From the IMG/VR virus record IMGVR_UViG_3300030099_001885, positions 1-41,128 of that record: a stretch of 41,128 nucleotides of DNA. One strand, written 5' to 3'. Shown here in pieces: positions 1 through 34,704 of the stretch. A program made the translations under genes and the position numbers. Source of the stretch: a virus. Below the pieces are notes generated by a model, which saw only the letters and a program-made list of their open reading frames with translations, was not told where the DNA came from and did no database searches. The first letter of the stretch is position 1. Every line of letters begins with the position of its first letter.

Positions 1-3000
1 CTTTATGAAGATTTTTCAGATGCTGTTGGAAGAGGATTAAATGCTCAATCAAAGGCAGCTCAGGCTAAAGCAGATGCTGCTACAAAACTACAACTCAAAA
101 ACAATTACATCAGGAATCCTAATACAACATTTGGTTTAGGTCACGGTTATGTTCCCAATGCAACTAATGCAACAGATCAAGCAAAAAATGATATGTTATT
201 TACTGTAGTAGGAGAAGCGGCACCTAATGCAGTTGCAGGTATTTTTAATCCTAACGGTGCTGCAGCCAATACCGTACAGGGAAGTCTTGTTGCGGCAGCA
301 ATTCCGGGTCTGAGCGATACTGATCCAAGTGGTAGATCTCTTCAAAACGGTTTAGCTAATTTTCAAGAGCTGTTAAAAACTGGAGATCCCCAAGCTCTGG
401 CTGATTTTGCAAAAAATAATCCCGGTATAGAACAAGAAACTTTAGATGACCTGCGGCTATTAATGGATCCTATGTCATTTATTCAATATGGTTTTAATCC
501 ATCCCAATATAAGACTCAAGTAGGTAGACTGGGAGCTGTTAGTATGGCTGCACAATTACTTGCATTAGATTCTGGTAATGATGCATTAACTACCCCAGAT
601 GGTGTTGTGTTTAATTTTAAATTAGATCCTAGTAGTAGAGATCAATTAAGAAACGCAATTCTTACAGTTCCAGAAGGTGCAGTTGCTGGAAAGTCGGCTA
701 CAGCAAGAAATGCATATCGCATGCGTAATATTGGCGTGGCTGCTGCTCAAATTCAAGCACATAGAAAAGGAATCGAAGCTCCTAAAGATAGGCAAGCACA
801 AGCACAGGTAAGATCAGGTGCTTTAGCTGGGACAGAAGACCTACCCCAAACAAGTGATTTTGTAAGAATCTTAGAGAAAGATTTAGGATTCTCAAGAGAT
901 GGTGCTTTAACTATGTCTGTCATGGGTACAATTATTCCTAATTTTGATTTAGATAGATTAACGCCTGAAATGAGAGACGGAGCTATGGATATTTTGCAAG
1001 GTTTAGCTTTTAGTCGAGAAGGTACTTTTCAAAATCCACTTGTTCAAGCAGAGTATACTGCTGCACAAAGTTTGTTTAGAAAAGATCCTACAGATGCAAG
1101 AGTGTCTGGTACTAGGCGTATTGAGCCCGATGAAGTAGGAAAAAAATTAAGATATTTTTTTGCATTAGGCAAAGGTTTAGGTACATCGGATGCTCTTGAC
1201 TATCAATATACAGACGAAGAACAAACAAGCTATGATGCTTTAATTTCATCTCTTGCTGCAGAAAATACTGATGAAGCTAAAAAAGAAGCAGAAGAAGGAT
1301 TAGCTCGTACTGTTCGCACCTTTGAGGTGGGTGATCAATCTATTGGTCTTAGTATGATGGCAGCTGTAAGAACTTTAGCATTAACAACAAATGATGGAAG
1401 AAATCCATCTCTTACTCCCGGTCAATTCTTTGGTATGGTTCGTATGCCTACTAATTTAGCTCCGGGTAGATCAATGATTGCAGAAGATGGTGGGCTTATT
1501 GTGCCTACTGCAGTTGCTGATTTAACTGGAGATTTATCTACAGCTGGTATTGATATTAAATTAAATACTACACAATCATTAGCAACATCAGCAGTTAATA
1601 ATGCTCGTTTAATGCAAGAATATGTTATTCATCCAGACAACTATGGTGAATATCAATTAAGCACTAGTGAAAGTGCTATGTTGTTTGATAGAGTACGATC
1701 ATTTGCTCAAGAATATGATACAGAATTAGCTGCCGGTCAAATTGATATGTTATCTGCAATTGTTTCTTCTGAATTAATTATGGAGCAAACTACAGGTCAG
1801 CCTAGTCCAATCATAGATGATTTACTTAGAGGACAAGCAGACATTAAAGGTGGTATAAAAAGAGAAGAGTTAATCCCACAGTCTAAAGATGGAAACCCAT
1901 TTAAGATGCCTCACTTGCCTACAATTCAAGTTCTTGTTGCTAATGTTCAAATGGCTGAACCTATGCCCGGACAGGGAGAAGATCAAAAGGATGCGGCGTT
2001 TGTAACTACTGTTAGCGGCGATCAAAAATTATTTGGTATTGAACGTGAAAATCCTATTGGAGACTTAACACAAAATCAAATTGCTGTTCAATTATTTGAG
2101 GAACATAGAAGAGTAGTGCCAGTACAGCGATTAGATATTAACGATCAAAATGTAGAATCATATATTAGTAATGGTACAGATACAAGCCAAGCATTAACAA
2201 GACAGGCTGTAGCTCGGCGTAATGCAGCTGGAGATAATATACCTATCGGTGCGTTATTAACCAGTAGAACCTCAGCTGGAGGTCACGCTACAACTGCAGC
2301 CACAAATCCAGCAGCACGTTTACAACAGTTTAATATTGAACGTGCTGATTATGTTACAAGATTAGGTGATGGTCTTGTTAACCTTGGTTTTGATGTACCT
2401 AAAAATGCTGAAGGTGTATATGACTTTGGCGGCTTTTCTAAGCATCCTCTTGTTAATGTAACATTAGATGGTAAGACAGCACAAATGCGACCCGTTGAAG
2501 CATTAGCATATGTACAGGCTGCTTTATATCCTCGACTTGCACATGCGGCACACTTGGCTGGTGTTGAAATAAGTCCTGAATTTACTGAAGCATTTGCATC
2601 TATTGAAGCAGGAGAAGTAGAAGGAATGGACGCAGGAGATCCCTTCAGAGTAGATCCTCGTATTGGGTCTGTTTTAGAAGCCAGTGATCTTCAGGCATTT
2701 AGTCGTTATGGTCAAAGTGGAATAGATGCTAGAGGGAGAAGGGGTGTTGTTAGAGAAGAACTAAGACCTACTGTAGATTATAGAGATGACGTTTATGGTG
2801 ATGATCCAGATGCAGAAGCTTTTGTAACATTTATGGTTGGTTCAGCTCTTCAACGTTTGCCTGATCCTAGATATGGAGGCAAAGTTAGTCACACAGCAGA
2901 TGCTGATGTAGCTATTGAAAGATATTATGATGTATTGCCTCCAGCACTTCAACGAGCAGAGTTTAGAAGAGTAAGTGGCGATAGTCCTGAATATTATGAT

Positions 3001-4308
3001 AGAAGTTTAAATGAACCCGCTTTTAATTTAGATGGTGTTTTAGCTACAGCTTTAGACGCTGCTGGAACAGTTGAAGGCAATTATCTTTTAAGCGGTGATT
3101 TTTTAATTGATGGTTGGAATTTTGTTGCAAGAGAAATGCTGCCAGATAGAATTTTTAAAGAAGGACATTCTGGAGATGATTTACAAATTGAAGCTGATAC
3201 TAGTGCGGCTAGTAGAGCAGCAGCTAGAGCGGTTTTGTATACACAAGCTGAAAGTATTAGACAAAGAGATGCTTTAAATGATTGGTGGGCATTTGAAGGA
3301 AATCCGAATATATATCCAGTTAATATCCATAACATTGATAAGCTAAGTCAAGGCACTTTTGGTGCAGATGGTAGACTTACCTTTGCTCAATCTGATATTA
3401 AACTTTCTCCAAAACAACCACCTGTAAGTAATCCGCCGGTTAAAATTGTAGATCCTTTAGATTTAACTGCACCAGCACCTAGACCTATAAGTACACCTGC
3501 AGATAAGCCAACATTGCCACCAAGTGGGACGCGTAAAGGCTTGCCAGTAAGTACACCTGACGATAAACCAATTGCAGGATTGCCTAAAGGTTTTGATGAT
3601 TTGCCGGGAACACAAGTAGGACCTGTTATAACTTTAGATCAATTAACCGATCAAGGTGGACCAAGAGGAACTACAATTACCAACTTTGTTGTTATGTCTG
3701 CACTGGGGGCTACTAATGGTTCTCTTCCAGATTATGTTAATTTAAATGGAATTAACCGATCTAAGGTTGGGCTTAAAAGAGATGGCAATAAGACCAGTCT
3801 ATTTATGCAGACACCTGTTGATTATCCTACATCTGATTTACAAAGAGAAATTGTAAGTAGTTTTAGAAAAGAATTAAAAGATTTTAGAAAATTAAATAAT
3901 GTTTTAAAATCTGAAGGTATTCAAGGTTTTAGTAAATTTGCACCAAAAGATCCAAGTAAATATTGGAAGTCTTATGAACCCGGATTTACTTCAGATACCT
4001 TTGATATTAGCATGATCTATGACTATAAGGGTTACTTTAGAGACTGGGGTAAAAATATTATTAAAGATGACTATCAAGGTGACTCAGGTGATCTGTTTGT
4101 TGATCGGACTAATAAACCTGCCCTTGATTATTTAGACACATCGCGAACCGATAAAACTTTTGGGGCTGCTATGATGAACCCTGATAATTGGGATATTAAT
4201 ATTGACTTAGATGCAGATGCTATTCTGCAAAATTTACAAGACGGTAATTATCGTAGAACTGATAATATTGGCTTCGGCTTTTCCTTTAACTTTACATGGG
4301 AGTTTTAA
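1..4308 (+). CDS. Large virion-type protein, 5' end outside window
   Basis: The frame is open from the first base, so the gene begins upstream; the first internal ATG (193) has no ribosome binding site and is not taken as the start. At least 1435 residues are visible. I recognise no catalytic motif. The body is Ala/Gln/Asp-rich and looks soluble. Around residues 1137-1206 a proline-rich linker contains two similar units (STPADKP and STPDDKP) and the motif PPVSNPPV. The C-terminus is aromatic and ends FNFTWEF. It stops 3 bp before the 5139-aa gene, and the two share Pro-rich linker motifs, which suggests they act in the same particle, for example as internal or ejected virion proteins. That role is inferred from size, position and neighbour. 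Codon use is AT-rich, with many TTA and AGA codons, like the next gene. Confidence 0.8.
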   Translation, partial: LYEDFSDAVGRGLNAQSKAAQAKADAATKLQLKNNYIRNPNTTFGLGHGYVPNATNATDQAKNDMLFTVVGEAAPNAVAGIFNPNGAAANTVQGSLVAAAIPGLSDTDPSGRSLQNGLANFQELLKTGDPQALADFAKNNPGIEQETLDDLRLLMDPMSFIQYGFNPSQYKTQVGRLGAVSMAAQLLALDSGNDALTTPDGVVFNFKLDPSSRDQLRNAILTVPEGAVAGKSATARNAYRMRNIGVAAAQIQAHRKGIEAPKDRQAQAQVRSGALAGTEDLPQTSDFVRILEKDLGFSRDGALTMSVMGTIIPNFDLDRLTPEMRDGAMDILQGLAFSREGTFQNPLVQAEYTAAQSLFRKDPTDARVSGTRRIEPDEVGKKLRYFFALGKGLGTSDALDYQYTDEEQTSYDALISSLAAENTDEAKKEAEEGLARTVRTFEVGDQSIGLSMMAAVRTLALTTNDGRNPSLTPGQFFGMVRMPTNLAPGRSMIAEDGGLIVPTAVADLTGDLSTAGIDIKLNTTQSLATSAVNNARLMQEYVIHPDNYGEYQLSTSESAMLFDRVRSFAQEYDTELAAGQIDMLSAIVSSELIMEQTTGQPSPIIDDLLRGQADIKGGIKREELIPQSKDGNPFKMPHLPTIQVLVANVQMAEPMPGQGEDQKDAAFVTTVSGDQKLFGIERENPIGDLTQNQIAVQLFEEHRRVVPVQRLDINDQNVESYISNGTDTSQALTRQAVARRNAAGDNIPIGALLTSRTSAGGHATTAATNPAARLQQFNIERADYVTRLGDGLVNLGFDVPKNAEGVYDFGGFSKHPLVNVTLDGKTAQMRPVEALAYVQAALYPRLAHAAHLAGVEISPEFTEAFASIEAGEVEGMDAGDPFRVDPRIGSVLEASDLQAFSRYGQSGIDARGRRGVVREELRPTVDYRDDVYGDDPDAEAFVTFMVGSALQRLPDPRYGGKVSHTADADVAIERYYDVLPPALQRAEFRRVSGDSPEYYDRSLNEPAFNLDGVLATALDAAGTVEGNYLLSGDFLIDGWNFVAREMLPDRIFKEGHSGDDLQIEADTSAASRAAARAVLYTQAESIRQRDALNDWWAFEGNPNIYPVNIHNIDKLSQGTFGADGRLTFAQSDIKLSPKQPPVSNPPVKIVDPLDLTAPAPRPISTPADKPTLPPSGTRKGLPVSTPDDKPIAGLPKGFDDLPGTQVGPVITLDQLTDQGGPRGTTITNFVVMSALGATNGSLPDYVNLNGINRSKVGLKRDGNKTSLFMQTPVDYPTSDLQREIVSSFRKELKDFRKLNNVLKSEGIQGFSKFAPKDPSKYWKSYEPGFTSDTFDISMIYDYKGYFRDWGKNIIKDDYQGDSGDLFVDRTNKPALDYLDTSRTDKTFGAAMMNPDNWDINIDLDADAILQNLQDGNYRRTDNIGFGFSFNFTWEF

Positions 4309-4311
4309 ATT

Positions 4312-7300
4312 ATGATACCAGATCCTCGACAAGACTTGTTTGATTTAGCAGATCAACAAGATATCTTTAGGCAATTGACGCGGCAGCAGTCGCCTCAGCC
4401 TACAACTACTCGGGGGGAAAGAGAGTATGCTGACTTCTTAGAAGATTTAGAAGTAAATGCTAATGTAGGTTCTATGAGTTTTAGTAGAGCAGAGGCTTCA
4501 CGACAGGCTGCTTTAGATAGAAGAACTTATGGCAAGTTAAAAGATAATGTACAAAATGCAGAGATGCTTGGTCATGATAATCCTAAGCATGCCTCTGAAT
4601 TATATGATTTTAACTTTAAGATTCAAACTCCTGATGCTCAGGGCAACCTTGTAATTAAAGATAGTAGAACTCTTGGGTGGGCAGATGCTAGTGAAGCTAG
4701 TTTTGCTATGGCTAATACTGAAGTGCAACGTGGTATTGTTTCGCGTAACGCAGCAGGTATGAATATCAATAAGAACTTAATGTTTGGTGGAGCTAGAGAA
4801 TTCTTTGAGAATAGAGGATTAAGTCAAAAAGATACTCCCTATGATCAAGAAGTAAAAGATATTACTGTAGCCAGTGATGGATTTAATATGGATCCTAGAA
4901 ACTGGAGAACTTCGTTTGATTTGTTTGGCTATATGGATAGTCCAGATACTAATGCACTGAAATGGGTTGATCCTAGTTTTAATGCTAAAGAATATTTAAA
5001 TGAAATTAATGCTCTTAAACCAGAGTATACCTCTCTATTAATGCGTAATGGTGTAGATATTGAAGCATTAAAAAAAACTACTAATGCTAATCAGTTTTGG
5101 ATGCAGATTAATAAACAACAGGTATTAATGTCAGCAGCTACATCTATTGCTATGTGGAAAGAAAAAGTTCCTGAGTATCAAGAGTGGGCAATGCTTACTA
5201 AAGATTTTATTAGAGATTCTTTAATCAATGACCCAGATTTTGCAGGTGAAATGGTTCTTACTGGTGCTCTTGGTATTCTTAGTGCTGGTACGGCTGTTCC
5301 CGGTTTAATGGCACTGTCAGTTGCTCGTAAGGGTGGCAGAGGTGTTAAAGTAGCCAAACATATGTTAAAAGCATCTAGAATGATTAAGAAGGCAGCACAA
5401 AAAGCTAATAATGCTTTGCCTCAAAACTGGGGATTAACCTTTGGTCATGCAATTAGAAATACACAAGTAGGTAAGTTCTTAAGTGTAACCAGTGATGACT
5501 TTATTGTAGACGGTGTGCGATTTGGTAAAACTCGAAAGTATGGCTCTAAGTTAGCTGGATATACTCTTGCAGAAGTACCTGCAGGTTTTATTGAAGAGGG
5601 TATTGCTGGTGCATACAATGCTTATACTATTAATCAACTTGATACAACTGAAGATAGAAGCTTATTTAAATCTTTTGTTAATGAAGGTATTCAAGGTTCT
5701 TTAGTTAGAGCTTTTGCTATTAATCCTTTACTTAGAGGATTTAACTTTGGTATTAGGTATGGCACTTCTAAAGCGGGCAATATCGCTTTAAATAATATTG
5801 GTTTCTTAGGTGGAGAAGCTGGCTGGGCTCAATCTCTTGGCGGTGCTTTTATGGAAGCACGACGTTTTGCTGATTTAGATGATGTTCAATTCTTAGATAA
5901 TGAGATTGATACAATCGAGGTTCTTGAAGCACTAAGATCTATGAAGATGAGAGAATCGGATCTTGTTGCAGAACTTGAAGGCACAACTTTAGAACAACTT
6001 GTGAATGAACATCCAGCTATGATTGCTATCTCAGAGATGCTTAAGTTTGATCAAGAGGGTAGAATTATTGGCAGAGATCCAGAAACTGGAGAGCTTAAGA
6101 TTGTATCACTTTTAAAAGAAGCTCGTCGTGAAGTAGCTAGAGCTAGAGTATTTAAATCAGAAGGTATTGAAGATCCTGATATTGATTTAGAAATTAGAGA
6201 TACTGATACAGATGTTGAGAAACAAAGAAAGAAAGAACTTAATGATCGTATTGAAGACGATATTAAAAACTCTGATGTAACTAATGATGAAATTAATCTA
6301 GCCATGTTGCATACTTTCTGGGGTAAACTGGATGCCGATGCTAAGAGCTCATATGAAGCTCAACAGATGAGAAACATGGCATACTTTAAAGTACAAGTTA
6401 GAGGTCTTGCTATTGAGCGTATGCGTGCTGCTCAGAAAGAAGGCAGGAAGTTAACTATTGAGGAAGCTCAACAGGAAGTCTTGCGGGATCCTGACTTACT
6501 CACCAAGATTGATTCTGGTGGTATTGCTACTGAGTTAGATCAGTTAATTGCTAAACAACATCCAGAATTGTTTGATGAACGACTTGTCTATAATGAAGAA
6601 ACAGGAGAACAAAGTGTTGTCTTTGTACCCAAGTCTATGGTTGTTGATAAAGACGGTACTGTTATGGCTGGTGAAGCTCTTACGGAAATGTTAAATAACA
6701 TTCGTCGTAATGTAAACTTTGATACACAACGTGCTGCAATTATGAACCACCGTAAGAAATTAGGCATGGTAAAGGATGTTAGATTTGCTATTGATGAAGC
6801 ATTAAATCAAAGGGTTGGAGAAATCTTTGGCAAGCTGCAAGGTAAAATTTCACATGGCAAGAACTTTGAAAGAGTACAAAATTTTGTTCGTCAAGAATAT
6901 GGTGCAGCTCAAAAAGGTACAGTTATTACCGTCGATGGTAAAAGAGGTACATTAAAAGATATTGATGATGCTGATATTATTGTACTTAGAACACAAGTTA
7001 GAGGCACTAAGACTACAGGTGAGTTAACATTTAAAGGTTACAATCTTGCAGATGGTACACTTGGTGATAAAGTTGTGATTGTCGAGATTAGTGCCTTTAC
7101 TATTGAACATGCAGAAACATTTAGAAACTTTTTAAATAGTCTTGAGGTTATTGATAAACTAGAAGTTGAAAAAATTCAAAACTCTGTAAGACCTGTAATT
7201 GTTAGAGGTTTGAATAGAACACTTAATCTTGATAATTTATCAGATACAGAATTAGATGAAGTATATGGTATTGTTACTTTAAATAGAGATCCATCTTTAC

Positions 7301-10300
7301 GATCTCCAGAATTAAGAGAAACAAGAGAAGGATTCCCTATTGTTGAAGAGCCTACAGCTAGACAGGCTAGACGGCAGCAACAACAAGAGCAGATCATAGA
7401 TGCATTAGCAGATATTTTAGTTGTTAGAGCAGTGTCTCAATTTGAAGGTGCTAGTGAAGTTCAAACCTCTATGCTTGCTAGAATTAATGGATTATTAAAT
7501 TTAGATGAAGGTAAAATTAATTCAATTGTTAGCAATCTTAGAAGATCCCAGTTTGGTCGTAGTTTATTACAAGATGTAGGTAATGTATTTGGTATTGAGC
7601 TTGCTCCTCTCGAAGGACTCCCTGTGCCTCCTACTGATACAGATGCCACAGACCGCCTCAGAGACGCTATGGGCGTTCCTAGAGATTCAGCCGTACCTCC
7701 ACAGGCTGACAGACCGCAGCCCCCTACAGAGGATCCTGACGCACCTCCTGCGGGTCCTGATACTCCTATTGGACCACAGCCATTTATTGGTCCTCAGCCT
7801 AGAGTGGGCAAAGCTGATCCAACACCTACACCACCTGCAGATATTGCTCCTACTCCTAAACCAGCCCCGCCAGCAGAAACTGCTCCTGTAACCGAGCCTG
7901 ATCCGGTAACTGAGCCTACGCCACCGGCAGAAACTAGTACAGAAGATAATGCAGAAGAGTTGGATAATGCTTTAGAATCTGCGGCTACAACTACAACATC
8001 CGATTCTGGTGATCAACTTAATCAAGCTATGGAAGATGCTGATACTGGTAAGATTGCTCAAGAAAAAGATACTGAGATGACTGGTGACTTGGCTAAAGCT
8101 GCCGAGCTTAGAAAAGAAGCCAATGCTATCCAAGAAAGAATTGCACAACGTAACTCTCAATTAGATTCTAGTGGTCAACGTGTTGTTAATAATGCTAGAA
8201 CACGCGGTGATGAAATTAGAACTGAACTAAAAGCATTAGAACAGGCTCGTACTGATATGCGTGCTAAAGATGATTTTAGTCCAGAAGATGGAGAGTATGT
8301 TAATAATATGCAAAGAACAGATAAGCTTGAAAAAGAGTTGCAAAAATTAGAGCAAGGTGCTGTAAAAGCACAGCTTAGAACTACTGAAAATAATAAAGAT
8401 GCAAACGAAGCTGATCTAAAACGACTGCAAGAAATTCAAGATGAAATGTCTAAGCTTGCTCCTGATACTCAGTTTACTGTAACGGAAGAACTGTGGGCTC
8501 AGGTAGAAGTGTTAAAAATGAAGCGTCAAAAGTATGACAAAGCATATAGGGCATTAAATAAATTAGTAGACCCTAGTAAAAAAGCTATGTTATCACAGAT
8601 TCAATCTGCTCTAGCTACTGCTGGTATTTATCAATCTAAAGATAAAATTGGTAAGGATATGCGAGATCAGATTAATAGAATTCTTAAGAATCAAAAGAAA
8701 GATCCATTACCTTCTTATAAAGATAATACAGAAGTCAATGTTAAATTATTTAATCAAGCTTTCAAGGCATATTCAAAAGGTATTTTAAGAATTGGCAAAC
8801 AGCCTTTAACCAAAGATGAGTTGGGTCAAGCATCTGTTATGGCTAAGATTGGTAAGTCTAAATGGAGCGATCTAAGTGATATGGACTCAGCTGATGCTAT
8901 TGCTGCATATCAGATTGATAGCAGTACAGATCCTTTAAGTATTACCGATAAACCTTTTACTGGTATAATGAAAGAATCATTTAATCCTCTTAATAGATTA
9001 ACAGGAGACTTAGAGGAAGACGAAAAAATTGCAGCGTTGGCTATTCAAAATAACTTAGAGTTTGTCAAAACTTTACAAAATAGTTTAATTAATGTTTTCA
9101 ATACTTTAAATAGAAGATTTGTAACAGCTGCTGAGCTAGCATCGTTTGCACTAGGCACTACTACTAGAGTGGGCAATGTAAATGTGGGTGCTGTATATGC
9201 CAAATTAAACTTTGATGTTATTTTCCCAAATGCTTTAAGAAAAGGTGATGATGGTAAGTCTGTTCAATTCTTTAGTGTAGAAACTTTATTAGATGAATTA
9301 GATATGCATCAAGCACGCTTAGAGTTTGCCATGCCTACTAAAGATGGTATTAAAGGCCAAAGAAATACTTTGCGTAAAATTGAAGCAGCTAGAGCTTTGT
9401 TAGAACGAGATGAAATGGTTCCCGATCCAGAACTTCTTATTGAAGAGGTAATTGAGTTGGCGGAAGGTGATGCAGAAGTCTTGAGAACTGTAGGTAAACA
9501 ATTGTTTGCTGAAGGGTCTACAGCTGGTAGATATTTAGTTGGTATTGATCGTAATGGCCAAATTATCTATAACACTGATTCTGAAGTATATGAATCTAAT
9601 ATTGATCAAGCAATCCTAACTAGATTGGAATCTTATAGTACAAATAGAATTGCTGTTAGAAATATTATTGATGAGTTGATTAGAGCAGAGATTATTCCTG
9701 AATCTGCTAGACAAATGAAAATCTTAGAAGACGATGATGTTTTAGAATTTAGAGAATATATTCGTGAATATCTTCTTAAGTATCCGGGCAATGAGTCTGG
9801 AACATTAGCGGCGTGGGGTAATGGAGAAGTATCGTATTCATTTGCTGACCAAGTTGGCATGGGTGTTGTTGATACTTTAGCTATGGTGCGTGAAGGCACT
9901 GAACATGAAAACATTGAATCATTTAACGATGAGTTTAAAGATGGTCGCATTGTAGATGTTGATAGAGTAAGAGAAGGCAGAGATCCTAATAAGTATCGCG
10001 GTGCTCCTCTGCGTATTAACATGGCAGAACCTATGACTGCTGGTAGATTACAAAAGCTTCGCGAAGATCATAGATTGATGCGTATTAATCAGTTTGTATT
10101 AGAGCAAGACTTAACTCCTGAGCAAGTAAGAGAAGTTTTTGACTGGGCAGATACTGGCAGCGAAGCAACAGAAGTTGTAACTGATGCTGCTGGATTTATT
10201 GCTGGTGAAAGACCAATGCCTAGAATCCTAGTGTCAGGTCCAGAACAAACATTGCGAGAGCGAGACAAAGTAATTGATGACATGCTATTAACTATGTCTG

Positions 10301-13300
10301 GTGTAGATCAAGTATTGGCATCTACTATTCATGATGCTTGGAATACTCAGACTAATGGTGTACAGCCCAATGGCGGTTTTATTGATGAAGGAGAGTTTAG
10401 AAAATTATCCGAAAAATTAGGAATGACTGCTGATGGTTTGTCAAGAGTTATGAGCAACAGAGAAGGTGCAGGAGCTGGTGCATACGGTGGTTTAGCTTCC
10501 GGTATTACTAGCTTTGGCACTGTAGCATTCCATGCAAACCGTGGCTGGGAAGCATTGTTCCCGATCTTTAGAGATGCAGCTATTGATTCTGTCGCATCTT
10601 GGGAAGCTCTTAACAAAGCTATTGCACAAGATCCAACTATTGAAATTAAAAGTCTTCAAGATATTCTTAGCAAAGAAACTTATTTTGATGGCAACTTTAA
10701 TGGTATTCATCATAAGATGGCTTTGTTATTCCAGTGGACAAACAAGCAAGTCTTTGATGGTGCTACTAGAGAAGAGATTAGAGCAGCTATTGAAGGCGAA
10801 GGAGATGCCTTTGATCAGTTCTTAGCTAAACAAATGGATAGGATTAATGAAGAGTTTAAGTCTTCAGCTGGACAAGATTATTATGCTAAGGTTGCTCACG
10901 ATGTTATGTTTAAAGTTTTGAATACAGCATATAATGGTTTAGGAGAAGCTAAGACTTCTGCACTTAAAACTGTAGAGTCTATGAAAGAAAGAGGACTGTT
11001 ACCAGAAACTATTAATCAAAATAACTATAAAGATATTCTTACTGTTGAAGCTATTGGTGACGAGTCTAATGCTGATCTTAATATTTTAAGAAAGTTATTT
11101 AAGAAACCTGTTATGGTGTATCTGTATGGTGCAGGATTTAACAAGATTAACAGCCAGTTTATTGACTTTATGCAAACTGAATTTGATATGTCAATGAGTG
11201 AAGCTACCGAGATTGCCTTGCCTTTGTCTCAAGTTGCTCATGGTTTTGGTATGAAAGAAAGACAAGTTGCCATGACTATGCTTGCTAAAGAGGAATCATC
11301 TCTTAGCGAAATCATTGGTGGTAGAAATCAAATGGAAGCTATCCTTGATGCCATGCGAAAACGTATGGATCAAAGAGGATTTAATTCGCAAGCTGTTCGA
11401 GATATTAACAATATTATTGCAACTATGACTGGATTGGATGATCTTGATAACATCCAATTTAATCATATTGCTTTCCAAATCCAAGCTCGCAATGCAATGA
11501 TTGAAGATCTTATCCAAGTTCGTTTAGGTTATGAGGTTGGTACACCTGAGTATAATGCTGTTAAGAAACAAATTAATAGTATGACCAAAGCAGCACAAGA
11601 CAAGCAAAGTCAAGCCTTACAAACTAGAATTCACAAGGGACTTGATTCTATTTCCGGCAAAGATCCAACAGGAGAGCGAGCACACTTTGCTGTTACAGAT
11701 CCAGCGGAGCGACAAGAATATGTTAATGCTATTGAGATTATTTTAACTAGAGATAGAAGTGAGTGGGCAACTCTTATCCCTGACTTTATTGATAAGGATG
11801 GTAATTTAAAGAGCAAGCCTTCAGGCAAAACTTTAGGAAAAGAAAATATTGCCAGCATTCTTAGATTAATTAGAACTGAACTTAGTCAACCAATCACCAA
11901 ATCGGAAGCTAGAGAAATTCAAGATGCTGCTATTAATGCATCAGGTATTGAAAGCGGTTTGTTTAAAGCTGTTAAAGCATTAAATCAAGTTGCTCGTAAA
12001 GCTGATATGCAAAGTCTTGAAGAGCTTATGGATTTTATGGGCGTTAGTTTATTAGAACCTAGTATGCGAGAAACGCTGTCACAATTCTATTCTGAAAACG
12101 AAACCTATCGAGGTATTGGTAGTGACTTGTATTCTGGTAGATTGTATGCCACAGAGCATACAGGATCTCATCAAGGACCCAAGGGTGCTCAAGATAAGGG
12201 TCAATCTGCAAGTGAGCCCCTGTTATCTATGGGTGTAATGGTTAAGACTAGACCTGAGTTGACTAGAGAAAAAGCTGAACAAATGTTTGCTAGATTTATT
12301 CTGGGTCGTTCTGCTAATGTAAAAACTGACAGTAATCATATTATTATTCAACTCGCAAAAAAACAAGGTAGAGATGATATTGTTGCTTTACTTACTCCTG
12401 AAAGTGAGTTAACAGAACAACAGGTTGCAGAACGTGATGCACAGTTTGTTAAACAATGGTTAACAGAATATAGTAAGTTAAAAGATATTGAAAGAACTTT
12501 CCAACAGAAACGTAATGCTGCAGAAGCAATGGGGCATGTCTTAGATCCTGATGGTGTCTTAGCACAGAAGATTAAATTATCTGCTGGATTGCAAGCTGCT
12601 ACCCAAGGTACTTTAGATATGGGTGAATCAGCTCCATCTGAAAGCATTGATCAATTAATTGATAGACAAATTCAAGTTGGAGTAAACTATGGTTTATTCT
12701 CCAGTAGAGCTCAAGTATTTGATACTAGCTTCCGCGATCTTGGTGTACCTGAATTAAAAGTGTCAAGAGAAAAACGTAAATTAGGATTAAGTGCTAAACA
12801 AAGAATTGAAGATGTTAAACAATTCCAAGATGAGTATACAGGATTTGATGTAGATGATGCACGCGTAATCAAAGAAGAGCATGTTAATAACGTGTTAGAA
12901 AATTCTTATGAGACTGATCCTAATAGTTTATTACACGAACATCGTGAACGGTTAATGCAAAATGGATTAAGAGCAAGAGTAGGACACAGAACTATTCAAA
13001 GAGTTTCTTTCCAATTAGAAGATAGTCTTATTAACTTTGCTGCTGAAAATGGTTTAATTAATTTGGTTAAATCAAATGATTGGCAAACATTAGACTATTT
13101 GCGACAGGCTTTTATTATTCGTGAGAAGAATGCTAGATTACAAGCAGAAGAAGTGCAGATTATTATGCAAGATGTTTCTAAGCCAAATGATGTTCGTAAT
13201 AGAGAAATCGAAGCTCGGATTCATTATTGGAGAAGAATGACTGATCTTGAGATCAGAGCTATTAATCAAAGGTTTATTGATAACAACGAGGCTCGAAGTT

Positions 13301-16300
13301 ACACAACTGAATTAACTCCAGCTGGTAACATGGGTATTGTTACTAAGAAAATTCTTCAAGATAAAGATGGAAATGATCGACCAGTTGGACAAATCTTAGC
13401 TGCTCTCTCTAATGATTTAAATAACTTACAATCTATGGGGGCTTTTGCAATAGTACCCGGTGTTGCTTTCCATGAAAGAACTAGAGGTAGATTTGATATC
13501 AGCGAAAACAGAGATCAACCTAGAGTGGTTCATGCTCACGATGTGGCTCATATTTTAACAACCGTTTATGATTTTAAAATTACAAGAGACTATTTGTTAA
13601 ACAATGAAGACTATACTCAAACATTAATTGAGCGTAAAGGTTTAGACATGACTGTTAAAGAGTTTGTTGAAAACTTAACTGTAACTGGCATGGAATTAGA
13701 TCTTGTAGAAATTGCTGATTTATTAGATAGAATTGAAGCAGCTAATCCTACCTTAGCTGAGACTGTTGTCTTCTCTAATGTTGGCGAAGCCTTTATGGGT
13801 AAAGTTAGTGAGACAGAAACTGCAGCTGCATTAAATAATGATACGCGTCGTAGCGTTGCTCAAGGTATTGGTAAAGTACAAGAAGAACAAAAAGTTATTG
13901 GTACTACAGCTAGATTTAGATTAACCTTGGGTCAAGCCAAAGAAGCATTGTTAGCTCTTCGTAATGCTCCCGTCTTAGATATTGTTTCAGATGTTAAGTA
14001 TACTGGTATTAGCGGCATCAACCGACCACGATCTAGATCCTCTCGTCTTGAGGTTGATCATGTTACGGGTCAACGTGTAACAGATATTCGGTTACGCGAT
14101 GAGCTTCATGCAGAAGCATTGCAAGCTATTGTAGATCGTAATTATATTAGAACTACTAACCGATCTGATCTGCCTAGCAGCACTAAAATTCGTACAGTTA
14201 TTGGTGGTCGTGATAGATCTATGTTAAGTAGACTTGAGCGAAGAAATAGAAGACTTCCTAAGTTAACTAAACTTGGTAAGCGGCAAGAGCAAGCTATTTA
14301 TTTAGATTATACTAATGTGTCCGGTACAACATCTAGAGGTAGAACTCTTTATGATACTGGATTAAATGCAGTAATTGCAGCATATCAAAAGAATAATATT
14401 GATCTTTCTAGTCCTCTAAGAAAAGAAATTGTTTCTCTTACAACTAATCCAAAATTAAACAAGACTAAAGCACAAAGAAAAACTGTTCTGGGTTATTTAC
14501 TTCAACACTTTGAACCTACTGGTATTCGTGTTCCCGGGCATACAGATGTTGAAATTGCTGTAGCTTTGGCCTACATTAATCTTGGCTATGGTGATAACTT
14601 TGCTGATGGCACCTATGCAACTTTGCAAGAAGAATTAAAAACTACTAAGGTTCAGAATACTGCCAAGTTAATGCAAGAGCTTATGACGTTAAACCATACT
14701 GTTATTAGCGGTGAAGCTAATCCATTCTTCTATGATGCTAGAGGATTTGTTGCCAACTTAAATGTTAGCAAGGTAGATTTAGATACTGATGTAGAATTGT
14801 TTGATGTCTTCCAACAGTATCTTAAAGAACAAGTTGGTGATGAGTTTGATATTACTAATAAGAATGATGTTGATACAGCACGCAAAGCTTTAGAAGAAGC
14901 TTTGGTATCTACGGATCAACATATGAATAGCTATGAATTTACTGATAAAACTGTGTTGCAAATTCAAACACCAGAAGAAGTATCTCTTGGTTTTGATCTT
15001 AACCCAACCACTGCATTATTAAAAGAAACATTAAATAATGCTGTAGAAAATGGTCACATGGCTGCATCTACTAGAGATATTGTTGCAACTGTAATTGGTA
15101 GAATGGCTGCATTAAATCCTGATTTATTAAATGATCTTAGATTTAATATTGGTAGAGATGCAGAAGGTAATGTAATTGAAGAAAGCCGTGCCATGACAAT
15201 TCCAGAAGACGATGGCTATCTGGTTGAACTTAGTGGTAGAGATGCTAAGAAGGCACCACTGGAAGCTGCTAAGATTTTAATTCACGAGATTATTCACATT
15301 GGTACTTTTAAGTATTATGATCTTGATAGCTCATCGCAAGAGTTGCGAGATATCAAAGGTTTAATGGGTCAACAAAGTGTTAGCCGTTTAACTTATCGTC
15401 TTACTAAAGCTATGCATGGTAGGTTAAGTGATGGCGAAGCACTTGCACGACATAGACACTACAACAATAACCCAGAAGAGTTTATTGCCGAAACTGCAGC
15501 AATGTACTTTATGTCTGAAGCTGCTGAAGATATTGATTTAATTCTTAAAGAAGAAGCAGAGAAGGCAGAAGCTACCGATGTAGAAACTACTGAGAAGCGT
15601 ACTTTTATTGAGAAGTTTACTGCTGCATTTACTCGTATGCTGCAAAATGCAAGAGTACAAATTAATCAAATGGCTGCAATCTTAAAACAATACTCACAAC
15701 GAGAGGAGTACAAACAATCATTTGATACCATGCAAAAGCTTGCTTATCGTGCTGCCGGTATTGTTGTTGCCGATGGTAGACAAGATGCTACAGTTGTTCG
15801 TAAGCCAAACCTGCAGAGCTACATGAGGCATCATGAAGAATCAGAAATACCAACAACAGAATCTATATCTGATATACAGTTTACAAACATGCAAATTAAA
15901 CATGCACAACTAGAAGCTAAGTTAAATGCAGCTACTACAGATGATAGATTATCACCAGAAGATTTTGGGGGAGAGATTCCTACTACATTATCTGAGGCTG
16001 AGATATCTGAAATTATTGATCAACTAGCTGATCTTGAAGCTCAAATTCAAAAGCATGATGTTGTTGATGACTTTGAAGTTAAGAGAAGTGCAAGACTGTT
16101 AGCTGAACAAAGATTAATTGAAGCTGCAGAGGTTGATGATAAGGGTGTATCTAAAGCCAATATTAAAGATATGTTAAGAGAAACACCAGCACTTGCTATG
16201 TCTATTATGATGAATAATCTTAGGATTAACAAAGGTGCTATTCATAGAACTTTCATAGAACGTAGAGCTCAATCAGCAAGCGGTCGTGCAGCATTAGCAA

Positions 16301-19300
16301 TTGCTAGTGATCATGCACAAACTAATAATACTATTGATTCTATTTTTGATATGGTTGTAAGGTTGTCATTGGTTATTGATAGTCAAGCTTTGATAACAGA
16401 ACACATGGTTAGTGGCGAAGGGTCACATGACTTATTGCGAGCTAAGCAACAAGTTGATAATGATATGGCATTCTTGCGTAGTCAATTAAGAACTCTTAAG
16501 CCACAAGATCATCCTACTGTTATGGAGTATCTTGCTGATGAAACACTTGAAGTTAGAGAAGGCGAAGAAGCTATTAAACGAGTTGCGGATCTTACCCGTA
16601 GCTCAATGAGTGGCATTATTCAACTAGCTAAAGATACAGGCATCTTGTTTGAAAACTTAGAATACAATCCTACTCCTATGAAAATTAATGAAACTAAGTT
16701 GGCACAAAATGAAGCAGGTGCTCTTACTCATCTTTCTGAATTAATTGGTAAGAAAGTAGTTGGCGAATTAAGTCGAGATAATATTGATCCATTGACTTTA
16801 ATGAACTCAGGTATTCTTCCGCCGTTGTTAATTACGGATAGATCTGCTAATGTAGACAAGCTGCACATTAATGATCAAGATAGATTTATTGAACATATTG
16901 TAGAACTGGCTAAAACAGATGAAGGCATTGCAGCAATTCGAGATATTATGCATGCCGACTTTATGCCTGTAGGTACTCGTAAGCAATTAGCTGATTTAGA
17001 TCCTAGCGAGATTGCAAACTATAATCCAGATTTATTAACTAATGAGTGGAGTAAAAATGATTTGCTTTCACTGCAATATGGATTGCGTAACCTGTACAAA
17101 AAGGGTTTCCAACGTCAAGGTATGAAGAGAAACGTAGATGGCATTCTTGCTTTAGTTAAGTCTAGATCTGATGAGTATCGAGGTGCGGTTACTAAAGCAT
17201 TTGATTCTATGGATATTGAAATCTTTAGAGCAAATAGAGATTTCCATCTTAATTTAACTAAACCTTCTCTTGATCACGGTGAAGCAACTATGCGAGAAGA
17301 GTTCCAGAATGCTAATACTCCTGCATTGTTTAGAGCTAGAATGTTCTTGGGTGAAACACAAACAGGTGCTAGATTCTTAGCTAAAGATAAAAACTTTGAC
17401 CCATCTCCTGCAGAGTTGATGGCAAAATCTAGAGGCGATGTGGCTGGAGATATTGACAATCCCTTGTATGGTATCTTTGTTGTAGATCCCAATACTTTGT
17501 TTGATGCTGTTTCAGTAGGTCTTGGATTTGATGCAGTGGCTTCTGAAGCATTAGGCAACGCTCTTGGTGGTGATAATTATAAAATTACCGGAATTAGATT
17601 TGATGATATTCTTACTGCGTTAATGGCAGAAGGTTCTGATCAGATTGTTAAAAACTTTAAGGGCATTGATGGATTAAGTTCTACTCTTAAGGGTCGTAAG
17701 AATATGAGTACATTGCGTACTGATTTAGAAGTTTTGCAAAATAAATATAACGCACTTGCTGGTCGACGTATGAGAATTGATCCTACTCAAGCTGGTGGCA
17801 TTACAAATAAATTAGCTGCTGTTGGTGGTGACTTAGTTCTTGCTATGTATGGTGGTAACTTAACCATGGCTACTTCTATTGTAGAAGGAACGTTAGCTGG
17901 TCTTCAAATGATGGGTCGAGGTGATATGCTTTTGGGTCCTGCTAGATTAATGACTTCTATTATTAAGAGTGCCTTGCAAGGAACAATTAGTGGTGCTGGT
18001 AAGTTTGCTCAAGAGGTAGGATTTAGAGGAGATGTATCTAAAGGTGTTGCTGAGTTTGGAATGCGTAACAGTTTAACAGAGCTAGCATTTGCACACCAGC
18101 ATGCAACTGTGCGTGGCATGGAAGCCTCAGAATCTGAAGGCAGTTTGGTTACTGATTCTACCTTAAATAAAATTGGTAATGTTATTGGCAAGCTTCCTAG
18201 AGCTGCTGCTAAGATGTCTACTAGTGCTTCTGGTGGTGTGCAAAATGCAATTAAATTCCATGTTGAGGGTATGGCAATTAATACATTAGATCGTCTTATT
18301 AAGAGTGGTGCTATCTTTAAATTATCTAATTTCTTATCTGATCCTGCTAATGCCGAGTTATTAGATATTAATTTAGATGATGGTCGATATACAATTCTCC
18401 ATAAAAAGATTAAGAGAATCTTGCGAGAATCTGGAGTACAAGACTTTAATTTCTTGGGTAAACAGGATGTTAAAATTATTATGGCTCTTATGCAATCAGG
18501 TGCTTTTAAACCAGAGTTCTTGGTTTCTCTTAATGAATTATTACAAAAAGCTGGTCTTGGCAAGTATGAATTTGATGGAACTAGAAAGAAGTATGATCCC
18601 GAGTTTAGCCCGTTATCACAAATCGCTAGATTGCAAGAAGTTGCACTGATGGATCCTGATCCCAAGAAGCGTAAAGAATATAATGATACTATCAATGTTA
18701 TTAAAGAATATGTAAATAGAGAGATTGAAGCCCGGTTTGTGGGAGCTAATCCTTTGCATATGGATACTATGAATAGTGGTTTTGGTGTTCTTCTTAAAGT
18801 GTTTAGATCCTACCCCACTCTGTTCTTCAATCAGAGAATTAGACAGGATATGAAATACTATAGTCCTATTCAAAATGCTACGAGGCTTACAGCATTAATG
18901 GCTTTGGATATTGCATATATGGTTGCTCTTGAGTTTATTAAGAGTGGATTTGAAGAAGATCGTCTTGAACAACTTATGGAAGAACTCCAACAGAAAGAAT
19001 CGTTAATGCGTCTGATGGCGAGAACTCCAACCTTTGGTGTTTGGGGTGGCGTGATTGCTAACGGTATTGCTGAAAGTGTAATTCACATTTCTGGTAGAAA
19101 GGGCTATACACAAAACCTTTTGAATCAAGCCTTTATGCCTGTGCCATTTACTAGGGCTCAGAATATTTACAAAGATGTTATGGATCTGGCTAAGTATGGA
19201 TTCTCAGATGATGCAACTGATGCGGCTCGATTTAACCTAGCATTGCTTAATCTGAGCACTGCTTTGCCCGGAACTCAAGAAGCATTTATCAAAGCAGCCG

Positions 19301-19731
19301 CCATGCACTATCTGACCAATGATGAGATGGATGATATCTTATTACAGAAAATGCGAAGAAGAATTCCGGGTGGTGGTGGTGGAGGCACTAGCTTGCCATT
19401 ATATTATCAAAATCCAAATGACCCTCTCAATAATCCGGGGGTTGTAGATTATGCAGCCGCTAGAAACATGTGGCCTGATGATATGCTTCACTTCGATATT
19501 ATGGCAAATCTTGCGCATCAGCCATTGCGGAGCCTGATGGGGCCTGAGATGCCTTCGGCTGAGGAACTAAGGGCAGAGGCCATAGAAAGATCTCAACCCT
19601 CTCAGACGGCGGCTGCGTCCCCGCAACAGCCTGTTAGCAATCCGCCGCTGGCTACGAAGCCTGCTGTGCCTACTCAGGCAGGGTCTACCCCTAGTGCTAG
19701 ATTGGCTCAAGCTTTGGGAAGCACGCCATGA
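4312..19731 (+). CDS. Giant virion RNA polymerase-like polyvalent protein (5139 aa)
   Basis: The best call is a phage N4-type virion RNA polymerase embedded in a giant ejected protein. Near the centre, FDGNFNGIHH (D2126) matches T7 polymerase motif A (FDGSCSGIQH, D537), and RKLFKKPVMVYLYG has R2260, K2264, Y2272 and G2273 at exactly the T7 motif B spacing (R627, K631, Y639, G640). A possible motif C is HAHD (D3077), but it lies about 810 residues after K2264. Other parts: a hydrophobic segment near 308-340; a Pro/Glu/Thr-rich linker at about 1095-1225, then a charged helical stretch; a zincin site HEIIH (3658-3662) with possible glutamate ligand E3723 or E3727; hydrophobic stretches near 4500-4600; an FRSYP segment near 4831 resembling the C-terminal part of podophage internal virion proteins; six glycines near 5020; and a Pro/Ala-rich tail. 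The start has GGGAG upstream. Confidence 0.75.
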   Translation: MIPDPRQDLFDLADQQDIFRQLTRQQSPQPTTTRGEREYADFLEDLEVNANVGSMSFSRAEASRQAALDRRTYGKLKDNVQNAEMLGHDNPKHASELYDFNFKIQTPDAQGNLVIKDSRTLGWADASEASFAMANTEVQRGIVSRNAAGMNINKNLMFGGAREFFENRGLSQKDTPYDQEVKDITVASDGFNMDPRNWRTSFDLFGYMDSPDTNALKWVDPSFNAKEYLNEINALKPEYTSLLMRNGVDIEALKKTTNANQFWMQINKQQVLMSAATSIAMWKEKVPEYQEWAMLTKDFIRDSLINDPDFAGEMVLTGALGILSAGTAVPGLMALSVARKGGRGVKVAKHMLKASRMIKKAAQKANNALPQNWGLTFGHAIRNTQVGKFLSVTSDDFIVDGVRFGKTRKYGSKLAGYTLAEVPAGFIEEGIAGAYNAYTINQLDTTEDRSLFKSFVNEGIQGSLVRAFAINPLLRGFNFGIRYGTSKAGNIALNNIGFLGGEAGWAQSLGGAFMEARRFADLDDVQFLDNEIDTIEVLEALRSMKMRESDLVAELEGTTLEQLVNEHPAMIAISEMLKFDQEGRIIGRDPETGELKIVSLLKEARREVARARVFKSEGIEDPDIDLEIRDTDTDVEKQRKKELNDRIEDDIKNSDVTNDEINLAMLHTFWGKLDADAKSSYEAQQMRNMAYFKVQVRGLAIERMRAAQKEGRKLTIEEAQQEVLRDPDLLTKIDSGGIATELDQLIAKQHPELFDERLVYNEETGEQSVVFVPKSMVVDKDGTVMAGEALTEMLNNIRRNVNFDTQRAAIMNHRKKLGMVKDVRFAIDEALNQRVGEIFGKLQGKISHGKNFERVQNFVRQEYGAAQKGTVITVDGKRGTLKDIDDADIIVLRTQVRGTKTTGELTFKGYNLADGTLGDKVVIVEISAFTIEHAETFRNFLNSLEVIDKLEVEKIQNSVRPVIVRGLNRTLNLDNLSDTELDEVYGIVTLNRDPSLRSPELRETREGFPIVEEPTARQARRQQQQEQIIDALADILVVRAVSQFEGASEVQTSMLARINGLLNLDEGKINSIVSNLRRSQFGRSLLQDVGNVFGIELAPLEGLPVPPTDTDATDRLRDAMGVPRDSAVPPQADRPQPPTEDPDAPPAGPDTPIGPQPFIGPQPRVGKADPTPTPPADIAPTPKPAPPAETAPVTEPDPVTEPTPPAETSTEDNAEELDNALESAATTTTSDSGDQLNQAMEDADTGKIAQEKDTEMTGDLAKAAELRKEANAIQERIAQRNSQLDSSGQRVVNNARTRGDEIRTELKALEQARTDMRAKDDFSPEDGEYVNNMQRTDKLEKELQKLEQGAVKAQLRTTENNKDANEADLKRLQEIQDEMSKLAPDTQFTVTEELWAQVEVLKMKRQKYDKAYRALNKLVDPSKKAMLSQIQSALATAGIYQSKDKIGKDMRDQINRILKNQKKDPLPSYKDNTEVNVKLFNQAFKAYSKGILRIGKQPLTKDELGQASVMAKIGKSKWSDLSDMDSADAIAAYQIDSSTDPLSITDKPFTGIMKESFNPLNRLTGDLEEDEKIAALAIQNNLEFVKTLQNSLINVFNTLNRRFVTAAELASFALGTTTRVGNVNVGAVYAKLNFDVIFPNALRKGDDGKSVQFFSVETLLDELDMHQARLEFAMPTKDGIKGQRNTLRKIEAARALLERDEMVPDPELLIEEVIELAEGDAEVLRTVGKQLFAEGSTAGRYLVGIDRNGQIIYNTDSEVYESNIDQAILTRLESYSTNRIAVRNIIDELIRAEIIPESARQMKILEDDDVLEFREYIREYLLKYPGNESGTLAAWGNGEVSYSFADQVGMGVVDTLAMVREGTEHENIESFNDEFKDGRIVDVDRVREGRDPNKYRGAPLRINMAEPMTAGRLQKLREDHRLMRINQFVLEQDLTPEQVREVFDWADTGSEATEVVTDAAGFIAGERPMPRILVSGPEQTLRERDKVIDDMLLTMSGVDQVLASTIHDAWNTQTNGVQPNGGFIDEGEFRKLSEKLGMTADGLSRVMSNREGAGAGAYGGLASGITSFGTVAFHANRGWEALFPIFRDAAIDSVASWEALNKAIAQDPTIEIKSLQDILSKETYFDGNFNGIHHKMALLFQWTNKQVFDGATREEIRAAIEGEGDAFDQFLAKQMDRINEEFKSSAGQDYYAKVAHDVMFKVLNTAYNGLGEAKTSALKTVESMKERGLLPETINQNNYKDILTVEAIGDESNADLNILRKLFKKPVMVYLYGAGFNKINSQFIDFMQTEFDMSMSEATEIALPLSQVAHGFGMKERQVAMTMLAKEESSLSEIIGGRNQMEAILDAMRKRMDQRGFNSQAVRDINNIIATMTGLDDLDNIQFNHIAFQIQARNAMIEDLIQVRLGYEVGTPEYNAVKKQINSMTKAAQDKQSQALQTRIHKGLDSISGKDPTGERAHFAVTDPAERQEYVNAIEIILTRDRSEWATLIPDFIDKDGNLKSKPSGKTLGKENIASILRLIRTELSQPITKSEAREIQDAAINASGIESGLFKAVKALNQVARKADMQSLEELMDFMGVSLLEPSMRETLSQFYSENETYRGIGSDLYSGRLYATEHTGSHQGPKGAQDKGQSASEPLLSMGVMVKTRPELTREKAEQMFARFILGRSANVKTDSNHIIIQLAKKQGRDDIVALLTPESELTEQQVAERDAQFVKQWLTEYSKLKDIERTFQQKRNAAEAMGHVLDPDGVLAQKIKLSAGLQAATQGTLDMGESAPSESIDQLIDRQIQVGVNYGLFSSRAQVFDTSFRDLGVPELKVSREKRKLGLSAKQRIEDVKQFQDEYTGFDVDDARVIKEEHVNNVLENSYETDPNSLLHEHRERLMQNGLRARVGHRTIQRVSFQLEDSLINFAAENGLINLVKSNDWQTLDYLRQAFIIREKNARLQAEEVQIIMQDVSKPNDVRNREIEARIHYWRRMTDLEIRAINQRFIDNNEARSYTTELTPAGNMGIVTKKILQDKDGNDRPVGQILAALSNDLNNLQSMGAFAIVPGVAFHERTRGRFDISENRDQPRVVHAHDVAHILTTVYDFKITRDYLLNNEDYTQTLIERKGLDMTVKEFVENLTVTGMELDLVEIADLLDRIEAANPTLAETVVFSNVGEAFMGKVSETETAAALNNDTRRSVAQGIGKVQEEQKVIGTTARFRLTLGQAKEALLALRNAPVLDIVSDVKYTGISGINRPRSRSSRLEVDHVTGQRVTDIRLRDELHAEALQAIVDRNYIRTTNRSDLPSSTKIRTVIGGRDRSMLSRLERRNRRLPKLTKLGKRQEQAIYLDYTNVSGTTSRGRTLYDTGLNAVIAAYQKNNIDLSSPLRKEIVSLTTNPKLNKTKAQRKTVLGYLLQHFEPTGIRVPGHTDVEIAVALAYINLGYGDNFADGTYATLQEELKTTKVQNTAKLMQELMTLNHTVISGEANPFFYDARGFVANLNVSKVDLDTDVELFDVFQQYLKEQVGDEFDITNKNDVDTARKALEEALVSTDQHMNSYEFTDKTVLQIQTPEEVSLGFDLNPTTALLKETLNNAVENGHMAASTRDIVATVIGRMAALNPDLLNDLRFNIGRDAEGNVIEESRAMTIPEDDGYLVELSGRDAKKAPLEAAKILIHEIIHIGTFKYYDLDSSSQELRDIKGLMGQQSVSRLTYRLTKAMHGRLSDGEALARHRHYNNNPEEFIAETAAMYFMSEAAEDIDLILKEEAEKAEATDVETTEKRTFIEKFTAAFTRMLQNARVQINQMAAILKQYSQREEYKQSFDTMQKLAYRAAGIVVADGRQDATVVRKPNLQSYMRHHEESEIPTTESISDIQFTNMQIKHAQLEAKLNAATTDDRLSPEDFGGEIPTTLSEAEISEIIDQLADLEAQIQKHDVVDDFEVKRSARLLAEQRLIEAAEVDDKGVSKANIKDMLRETPALAMSIMMNNLRINKGAIHRTFIERRAQSASGRAALAIASDHAQTNNTIDSIFDMVVRLSLVIDSQALITEHMVSGEGSHDLLRAKQQVDNDMAFLRSQLRTLKPQDHPTVMEYLADETLEVREGEEAIKRVADLTRSSMSGIIQLAKDTGILFENLEYNPTPMKINETKLAQNEAGALTHLSELIGKKVVGELSRDNIDPLTLMNSGILPPLLITDRSANVDKLHINDQDRFIEHIVELAKTDEGIAAIRDIMHADFMPVGTRKQLADLDPSEIANYNPDLLTNEWSKNDLLSLQYGLRNLYKKGFQRQGMKRNVDGILALVKSRSDEYRGAVTKAFDSMDIEIFRANRDFHLNLTKPSLDHGEATMREEFQNANTPALFRARMFLGETQTGARFLAKDKNFDPSPAELMAKSRGDVAGDIDNPLYGIFVVDPNTLFDAVSVGLGFDAVASEALGNALGGDNYKITGIRFDDILTALMAEGSDQIVKNFKGIDGLSSTLKGRKNMSTLRTDLEVLQNKYNALAGRRMRIDPTQAGGITNKLAAVGGDLVLAMYGGNLTMATSIVEGTLAGLQMMGRGDMLLGPARLMTSIIKSALQGTISGAGKFAQEVGFRGDVSKGVAEFGMRNSLTELAFAHQHATVRGMEASESEGSLVTDSTLNKIGNVIGKLPRAAAKMSTSASGGVQNAIKFHVEGMAINTLDRLIKSGAIFKLSNFLSDPANAELLDINLDDGRYTILHKKIKRILRESGVQDFNFLGKQDVKIIMALMQSGAFKPEFLVSLNELLQKAGLGKYEFDGTRKKYDPEFSPLSQIARLQEVALMDPDPKKRKEYNDTINVIKEYVNREIEARFVGANPLHMDTMNSGFGVLLKVFRSYPTLFFNQRIRQDMKYYSPIQNATRLTALMALDIAYMVALEFIKSGFEEDRLEQLMEELQQKESLMRLMARTPTFGVWGGVIANGIAESVIHISGRKGYTQNLLNQAFMPVPFTRAQNIYKDVMDLAKYGFSDDATDAARFNLALLNLSTALPGTQEAFIKAAAMHYLTNDEMDDILLQKMRRRIPGGGGGGTSLPLYYQNPNDPLNNPGVVDYAAARNMWPDDMLHFDIMANLAHQPLRSLMGPEMPSAEELRAEAIERSQPSQTAAASPQQPVSNPPLATKPAVPTQAGSTPSARLAQALGSTP

Positions 19732-20177
19732 TATCAGCGTTTCTTAATCCTGAAATGTTATCCCTGCTGACGGGAAGTGTCACAGGGTTTATTTTTAAGA
19801 GTATGGCGGAGAAAAGAAAAAATGATCATGAAAAATTTATGCGAGCTATGCAGGCTCAAGAAGCATCGGATGACTCAGCGAATCAAGCTGCTCAAAGAGT
19901 TAGTGATGCGGGAGGCAAACTGGTTAGGCGTTGTATTGTTATATGTATTCTTTTCGCTACTATCGTTGCTCCTTTTATCATTGCATTCAATGACGGAATA
20001 ACTACAGTAGTGGAGCATACTGAGACAGTGTATGATTGGTGGGATATATTTAAATTATTTCCTGAGGAAAAGACTTTGTTTACTGAGGTAGACGGATTCT
20101 TATTTACTCCTGAGAATAGAAATATTCTAGTAACTATTGTTGGGTTCTACTTTGGACAGGCTGTGAAAAGTCGATAG
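19728..20177 (+). CDS. Small membrane protein, candidate holin
   Basis: 149 aa. The start overlaps the stop of the giant gene (ATGA) and has GGGAAG seven bases upstream, so the two are translationally coupled. There is a clear transmembrane segment at about residues 66-86 (CIVICILFATIVAPFIIAF), a weaker hydrophobic N-terminus (MLSLLTGSVTGFIF) and a short hydrophobic C-terminal stretch ending GFYFGQAVKSR. A charged, Ala/Gln-rich helix lies between the first two. This layout resembles three-segment phage holins of the gene-transfer-agent type, and the place after the virion genes fits a lysis role. No endolysin gene is recognised beside it. It could also be a small membrane-bound virion protein. 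Confidence 0.6.
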   Translation: MISAFLNPEMLSLLTGSVTGFIFKSMAEKRKNDHEKFMRAMQAQEASDDSANQAAQRVSDAGGKLVRRCIVICILFATIVAPFIIAFNDGITTVVEHTETVYDWWDIFKLFPEEKTLFTEVDGFLFTPENRNILVTIVGFYFGQAVKSR

Positions 20178-20343
20178 GGGTCACGAATTTGTAAGCGGGC
20201 TTGTAGTACATTGTCTTTGTGGTTGCCCCCGGTACCCCTTGTTGTGACAGTGTTGTGCATACAGCGTTGCGTGTTCTGCTCGTGGCGTTGTGCTCTATAG
20301 GCATTCTGCAGCCTGCAATGCAGTAACCAAAGGAGGAGCCACC

Positions 20344-34701: not shown

Positions 34702-34704
34702 TTG

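Follow-up and report, generated by a model that had tools for sequence, protein, structure and literature searches.

The virus record IMGVR_UViG_3300030099_001885 encodes a giant protein of 5139 residues that is, in our judgement, probably an ejection protein with a single-subunit RNA polymerase (RNAP) domain at about residues 1990-3090, used in the manner of N4 gp50. We analysed bases 1-41128 of this 67,272-base record (the window, to which all coordinates refer), where the giant ORF, a proposed ejected virion RNAP with orthologs in the contigs L007 and L008, occupies 4312..19731 on the + strand. An earlier note had recognised polymerase motifs A and B in this protein, and that observation is confirmed. 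FDGNFNGIHH starts at residue 2125 (nucleotide 10684) with its aspartate at 2126; R2260, K2264, Y2272 and G2273 lie where they had been placed, with a spacing that we checked on the T7 sequence, and D2126 is 138 residues from K2264. The corresponding positions in N4 mini-vRNAP are a DG motif at 559 and R/K/Y/G at 666/670/678/679. The A-B/fingers region of the giant is homologous to single-subunit RNAPs. PHROG matches, predicted fold, motif scans, conservation, the lack of cysteine, a linker with a gene split, and synteny support our explanation; against it stand a Pfam score below its cut-off, poor models outside the fingers and the lack of a canonical motif C.

Motif profiles were built from nine T7-type polymerases, the phage's own two included, and used for a blind scan of a three-ortholog alignment along its full 5139 columns, with scores averaged over the orthologs and P values obtained by column shuffles. 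The best sites were 2125 for motif A (10.8 bits; runner-up 0.2), 2187 for the QDxY motif (13.2 bits; runner-up at most 0.2), 2260 for motif B (24.7 bits; runner-up -1.9), 2608 for DxxGR (10.5 bits; runner-up -2.8) and 3070 for the H784 motif (21.5 bits; runner-up at most 0.2), each at P < 1/3000, a value that holds for single motifs. The extended DxxGR block was seen by eye first and tested later, and an unbiased scan, in which each block of 16 residues in the family profile was used in turn, is the fairer test. This gave z-scores of 15.8 for B, 13.5 for H784, 8.6 for A, 8.5 for DxxGR and 7.8 for QDxY; as noise begins at z 7.3, no doubt attaches to B and H784, A and QDxY are good sites given their context, and DxxGR is good while lying near noise. 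Alignment with hhalign returned the same sites. Motif A, with the candidate catalytic residue D2126, spans 10684..10713 (+) and motif B, RKLFKKPVMVYLYGAGF, spans 11089..11139 (+); between them GQDYYAKVAHDVMFKVL (residues 2187-2203; 10870..10920, +) resembles the QDxY stretch of T7, QDIYGIVAKKVNEIL. Motifs A and B are unchanged in both relatives, and 16 consecutive residues at and around motif A are invariant among proteins that are about 42% identical.

Family profiles agree with these placements. Residues 2177-2295 matched PHROG 414, the T7-type RNAP, in all three orthologs (E 2e-5, 3.7e-6 and 1.9e-5) and PHROG 2206, the N4 virion RNAP, at E 8.6e-6, 6.5e-6 and 0.14. This second match bears on the kinship with N4 gp50 claimed in the earlier note, but covers approximately 110 residues only; searches found no sequence similarity to N4 gp50 outside the A-B region. 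Pfam RNA_pol reached E 0.02-0.04 against the giant, under its cut-off, and no PHROG match was found in the flanks. Apart from chance matches, searches of PDB sequences with the giant returned just a pentatricopeptide artefact, located in an insert.

The predicted fold points to the same family. Two AlphaFold models, covering residues 1640-2760 and 1940-2335 and made with only three sequences in the input, had a mean pLDDT of 44 and 48, rising to 70-91 over most of residues 2188-2319 (10873..11268, +), where the fingers subdomain of a single-subunit RNAP fold is predicted. Comparison of these fingers by VIA-align placed mitochondrial RNAPs on top (Z 10.0-10.5 over 91-97 residues at 2.2-2.9 Å); the best unrelated chain scored Z 4.4, and N4 mini-vRNAP was among the matches of the first model (Z 5.8). 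Foldseek with the first model returned nothing at E 0.001 or better. Of the right-hand fold that the earlier claim implied, the fingers were recovered and the palm was not: pLDDT in the palm region was below 50 and no palm was predicted, both models being confident mainly in the fingers and in some helical stretches.

Relatives of the giant are few. Searching any third of it by tblastn against 50,697 phage genomes gave no match, and further viral and genome scans returned only two IMG/VR contigs, whose proteins are 41-47% identical to it; two other contigs share the phage's 590-residue RNAP and nothing else. The counterpart of the giant in a close relative is UniProt A0A218MKS1, an entry for an uncultured virus with 91% identity to the modelled region where the two align; it is listed under no name but uncharacterized protein. 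A Pro/Thr/Glu-rich linker (residues 1100-1230; 7609..8001, +) divides the N-terminal region from the rest. L007 encodes each side separately, as genes at 3571-8130 and 8141-20278 with the break in the linker region and an AAGGAG ribosome-binding site just upstream of the ATG of the second gene, and this break looks like a natural split of the gene at a domain boundary. In N4 gp50, a low-complexity linker at 907-1006 likewise joins the N-terminal domain and the RNAP (PMC12633501). Further downstream, residues 3655-3730 (15274..15501, +) hold a zincin-like HExxH (3658) and EEFxAE (3722), kept in 3/3 orthologs and with no Pfam match; at a guess, this motif could cut the ejected chain.

By gene content the phage is a T7-like podovirus, with portal, scaffold, capsid, tail tube, nozzle, T7-type terminase and T7-type primase-helicase, and the closest relatives of its terminase, at about 39% identity, are from phages of Limnohabitans, Pelagibacter, Roseobacter and Rhizobium relatives. 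Where the contig begins and ends is arbitrary: its last and first ORFs, at record base 67272 and window base 1, fuse into an uninterrupted frame 2156 codons long, and a single ORF spans the corresponding place in a relative. The record lacks a repeat at its ends; because these abut inside one open gene, the genome is probably complete and circularly permuted. Besides the giant, the phage has genes for two canonical T7-type RNAPs, of 590 residues (22394..24166, +) and 812 residues (29242..31680, +), which are only 21% identical to each other; these, the H784 motif, the DxxGR-like block and the unusual motif order had been missed by the earlier note. The 590-residue enzyme lacks most of the N-terminal domain, like N4 RNAPII, with which it does not group firmly. 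Beside the gene for the 812-residue enzyme lies one for a DUF932 protein (28168-29154), and two adjacent tRNA genes, Leu(TAA) and Arg(TCT), occupy 34629-34778. A simple promoter scan of the non-coding DNA turned up 5 perfect hairpins, each isolated, with no common consensus or repeated motif.

With the ends joined, the gene order is terminase, 211-residue protein, 2156-residue protein, giant; the 3' part of the 2156-residue protein, which crosses the contig ends and adjoins the giant, is at 1..4308 (+). The giant has 0/5139 cysteines, whereas the cysteine content of the phage's other proteins predicts 69 (P 1e-30 on the assumption of independent residues); the other proteins sampled average 1.34% cysteine, and some structural ones (scaffold, tail tube) are also cysteine-free. 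Both the 2156- and the 211-residue neighbours have zero cysteine, as does N4 gp50 (0/3500), and the absence of cysteine has previously been treated as a clue to an N4-type vRNAP (PMC10747016). The giant and the two other cysteine-free proteins beside the terminase form a probable ejection module. Between this phage and the relative carrying L008, the giant is 42-47% identical, the 2156-residue protein about 25% and the 211-residue protein 63%, as against 90-91% for the terminase and the other two RNAPs. Such divergence is unusual for a catalytic domain and counts against our explanation; the whole ejection module diverges likewise. Between these two phages, compared at L008, L032 and L046, the ejection-type module thus shows strong local divergence.

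The earlier view of an N4-like RNAP domain in the middle of the giant stands as regards motifs A and B, the fingers fold and the N4-like ejection features; it finds no support as a plain copy of the N4 or T7 enzyme, since motif C was not recognised at its canonical position and the DxxGR-like block follows B rather than preceding A. The T7 order is DxxGR (421), A (537), B (627-640), H784 and C (812), whereas in the giant A (2126) and B (2260) are followed by DxxGR (2610) and H784 (3074). Scans and hhalign place the DxxGR-like block LYSGRLYATEHTGSHQGPKGA at residues 2608-2623 (12127..12189, +), 3' of motif B; its D/T (TxxGR in N4) is replaced and R2610 is kept, and no DxxGR block was found upstream of motif A in the giant. 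By the same methods the H784-type motif QPRVVHAHDVAHILTTVY (H3074; 13516..13569, +) reads PRVVHAHDVAH at 3070, in a block at 3070-3085, and resembles T7 PNFVHSQDGSH. VHAHDVAH (3072) is the H784 motif and was ruled out as motif C. Neither profile nor hhalign gave a match for motif C beyond 3085 in the giant. In N4-type vRNAPs used for calibration, the motif scan found D, A, QDxY and B in canonical order and mostly missed H784 and C; failure to find C is therefore not strong evidence of its absence.

A tentative candidate for motif C lies upstream of A, at TIHDAW (residues 2005-2010; 10324..10341, +), which reads IHDS in both relatives. Its IHD (2006-2008), 118 residues upstream of motif A, is the best C-like site, with an invariant His-Asp; it has P 0.0007 with a 12-column profile and is the second hhalign match in its segment, ranks third with 16 columns, and falls to P ~0.1 with 20. 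AlphaFold places it in a helix at pLDDT ~30. Conservation of the remaining catalytic residues leads one to expect a motif C somewhere, and the odds for IHD rise accordingly. We lean towards a downstream move of the DxxGR block and, given that move, regard an upstream move of motif C as roughly an even chance. A simple circular permutation (C-D-A-B-H) found no support, the DxxGR-like block coming after B. We therefore hypothesise an order C?-A-B-DxxGR-H784 as against the canonical D-A-B-H784-C, its weakest part being the assignment of C, and the palm would be built from segments in this altered chain order. The full proposal, an active and internally permuted T7-family enzyme with palm order C-A-B-DxxGR-H784 inside a tail-threaded protein, in a phage with three single-subunit RNAPs that might not need the host polymerase, is one that we hold tentatively, as possible and short of probable.

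The drop of IHD in the longer profiles and its poorly modelled helix would also fit an active polymerase in which only DxxGR has moved, IHD is a chance match and motif C goes unrecognised after H784, for example at the invariant QAIYLDY (~3325-3345). We consider this somewhat doubtful: C profiles of the T7 or N4 type give no score at 3325-3345, and QAIYLDY lies about 255 residues from H784 compared with about 28 in T7. Canonical order could equally have been retained, with the DxxGR-like site at 2608 and IHD at 2006 both arising by chance and the true elements diverged past recognition. The closeness of DxxGR to the noise of the unbiased scan (z 8.5 vs 7.3) and its weak single-sequence HMM support are consistent with this. 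That block is nevertheless the top site in the giant (10.5 bits vs -2.8, P < 1/3000), with exact GRxY...Q spacing, and falls where the RNAP region is most conserved, which makes retention of the canonical order likewise somewhat doubtful.

Conservation bears on whether the domain is still an enzyme. The missing canonical motif C, the unpredicted palm and the presence of two other complete RNAPs in the phage could all be read as signs of an ejected protein with a decayed polymerase, whose fingers, A, B and H784 are relics retained for structure or DNA binding, with no motif C and no catalysis. In the relatives, however, the equivalents of T7 R425, D537, R627, K631, Y639, G640 and H784 are invariant at about 42% identity, and since relics would shed such catalytic residues first, we regard decay as improbable. 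That the giant is no polymerase at all, being a helical ejection protein with motifs by chance, draws on its mostly helical prediction, its low-complexity parts and the lack of anything above the Pfam cut-off, and is very improbable given profile, fold and conservation evidence that are mutually independent.

These data allow us to suggest how the giant may act, and the likeliest role is that of an early, N4-like ejected polymerase serving a T7-like phage. Its presence in the virion, ejection, enzyme activity and timing we infer by analogy, the steps beyond the sequence being modelled on N4 (PMC4496689, PMC12633501). The giant would be packed in the phage head, accompany the DNA through the tail in unfolded form and refold inside the host cell, where its central domain would transcribe the first phage genes, the 590-residue polymerase gene among them; the 590- and 812-residue enzymes would take over transcription later. 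As a canonical motif C was sought and not found, we do not class the giant as a standard family member, and propose that it may be a variant form, working like the N4 virion polymerase without the standard placement of motif C. If true, the N4 strategy of carrying a polymerase in the particle reaches a T7-like lineage with two T7-type polymerases of its own. In addition, the giant may represent a T7-family polymerase whose palm motifs have been rearranged; we know of none such, and no permuted T7-like polymerase was found in the literature searched.

Among known systems, N4 gp50 (Schitoviridae, PHROG 2206) resembles the giant in being large and cysteine-free, in its layout of N-terminal domain, low-complexity linker, RNAP and C-terminal domain, in motifs A and B and the fingers, and in its ejection-type neighbour genes; the motif B of the giant, KxPxxxxxYG, is N4-like. 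The two differ in that there is no BLAST-level similarity, the giant has 5139 residues vs 3500 and its phage is T7-like rather than a schitovirus; the giant also has an H784 motif, which the T7 profile misses in N4, and a DxxGR-like block after B, with no motif C recognised after B. With the T7 RNAP family (Autographiviridae gp1 and mitochondrial RNAPs) it shares A, B, the QDxY helix, H784, a DxxGR-type block and a fingers fold at Z 10-10.5, but here the domain lies within a giant ejection-type protein, the block order is altered, and the gap from B to H784 is about 800 residues vs about 140. T7 has three ejection proteins, gp14, gp15 and gp16, largest last, in its structural gene cluster. From general knowledge rather than sequence, the three-protein module described here, also largest last, can be likened to these internal core proteins, except that its largest protein bears a polymerase domain. 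The candidate motif C upstream of A recalls the RNA-dependent RNA polymerases of Birnaviridae and Permutotetraviridae, in which motif C precedes motif A in an active palm (PMC8310298); those enzymes are RNA-dependent and unrelated, and in the giant DxxGR would also be relocated. If the rearrangement is true, the T7-family palm tolerates re-ordering as the palm of the permuted RdRps does, and this could explain the different wiring of a chain that must unfold, be ejected and refold.
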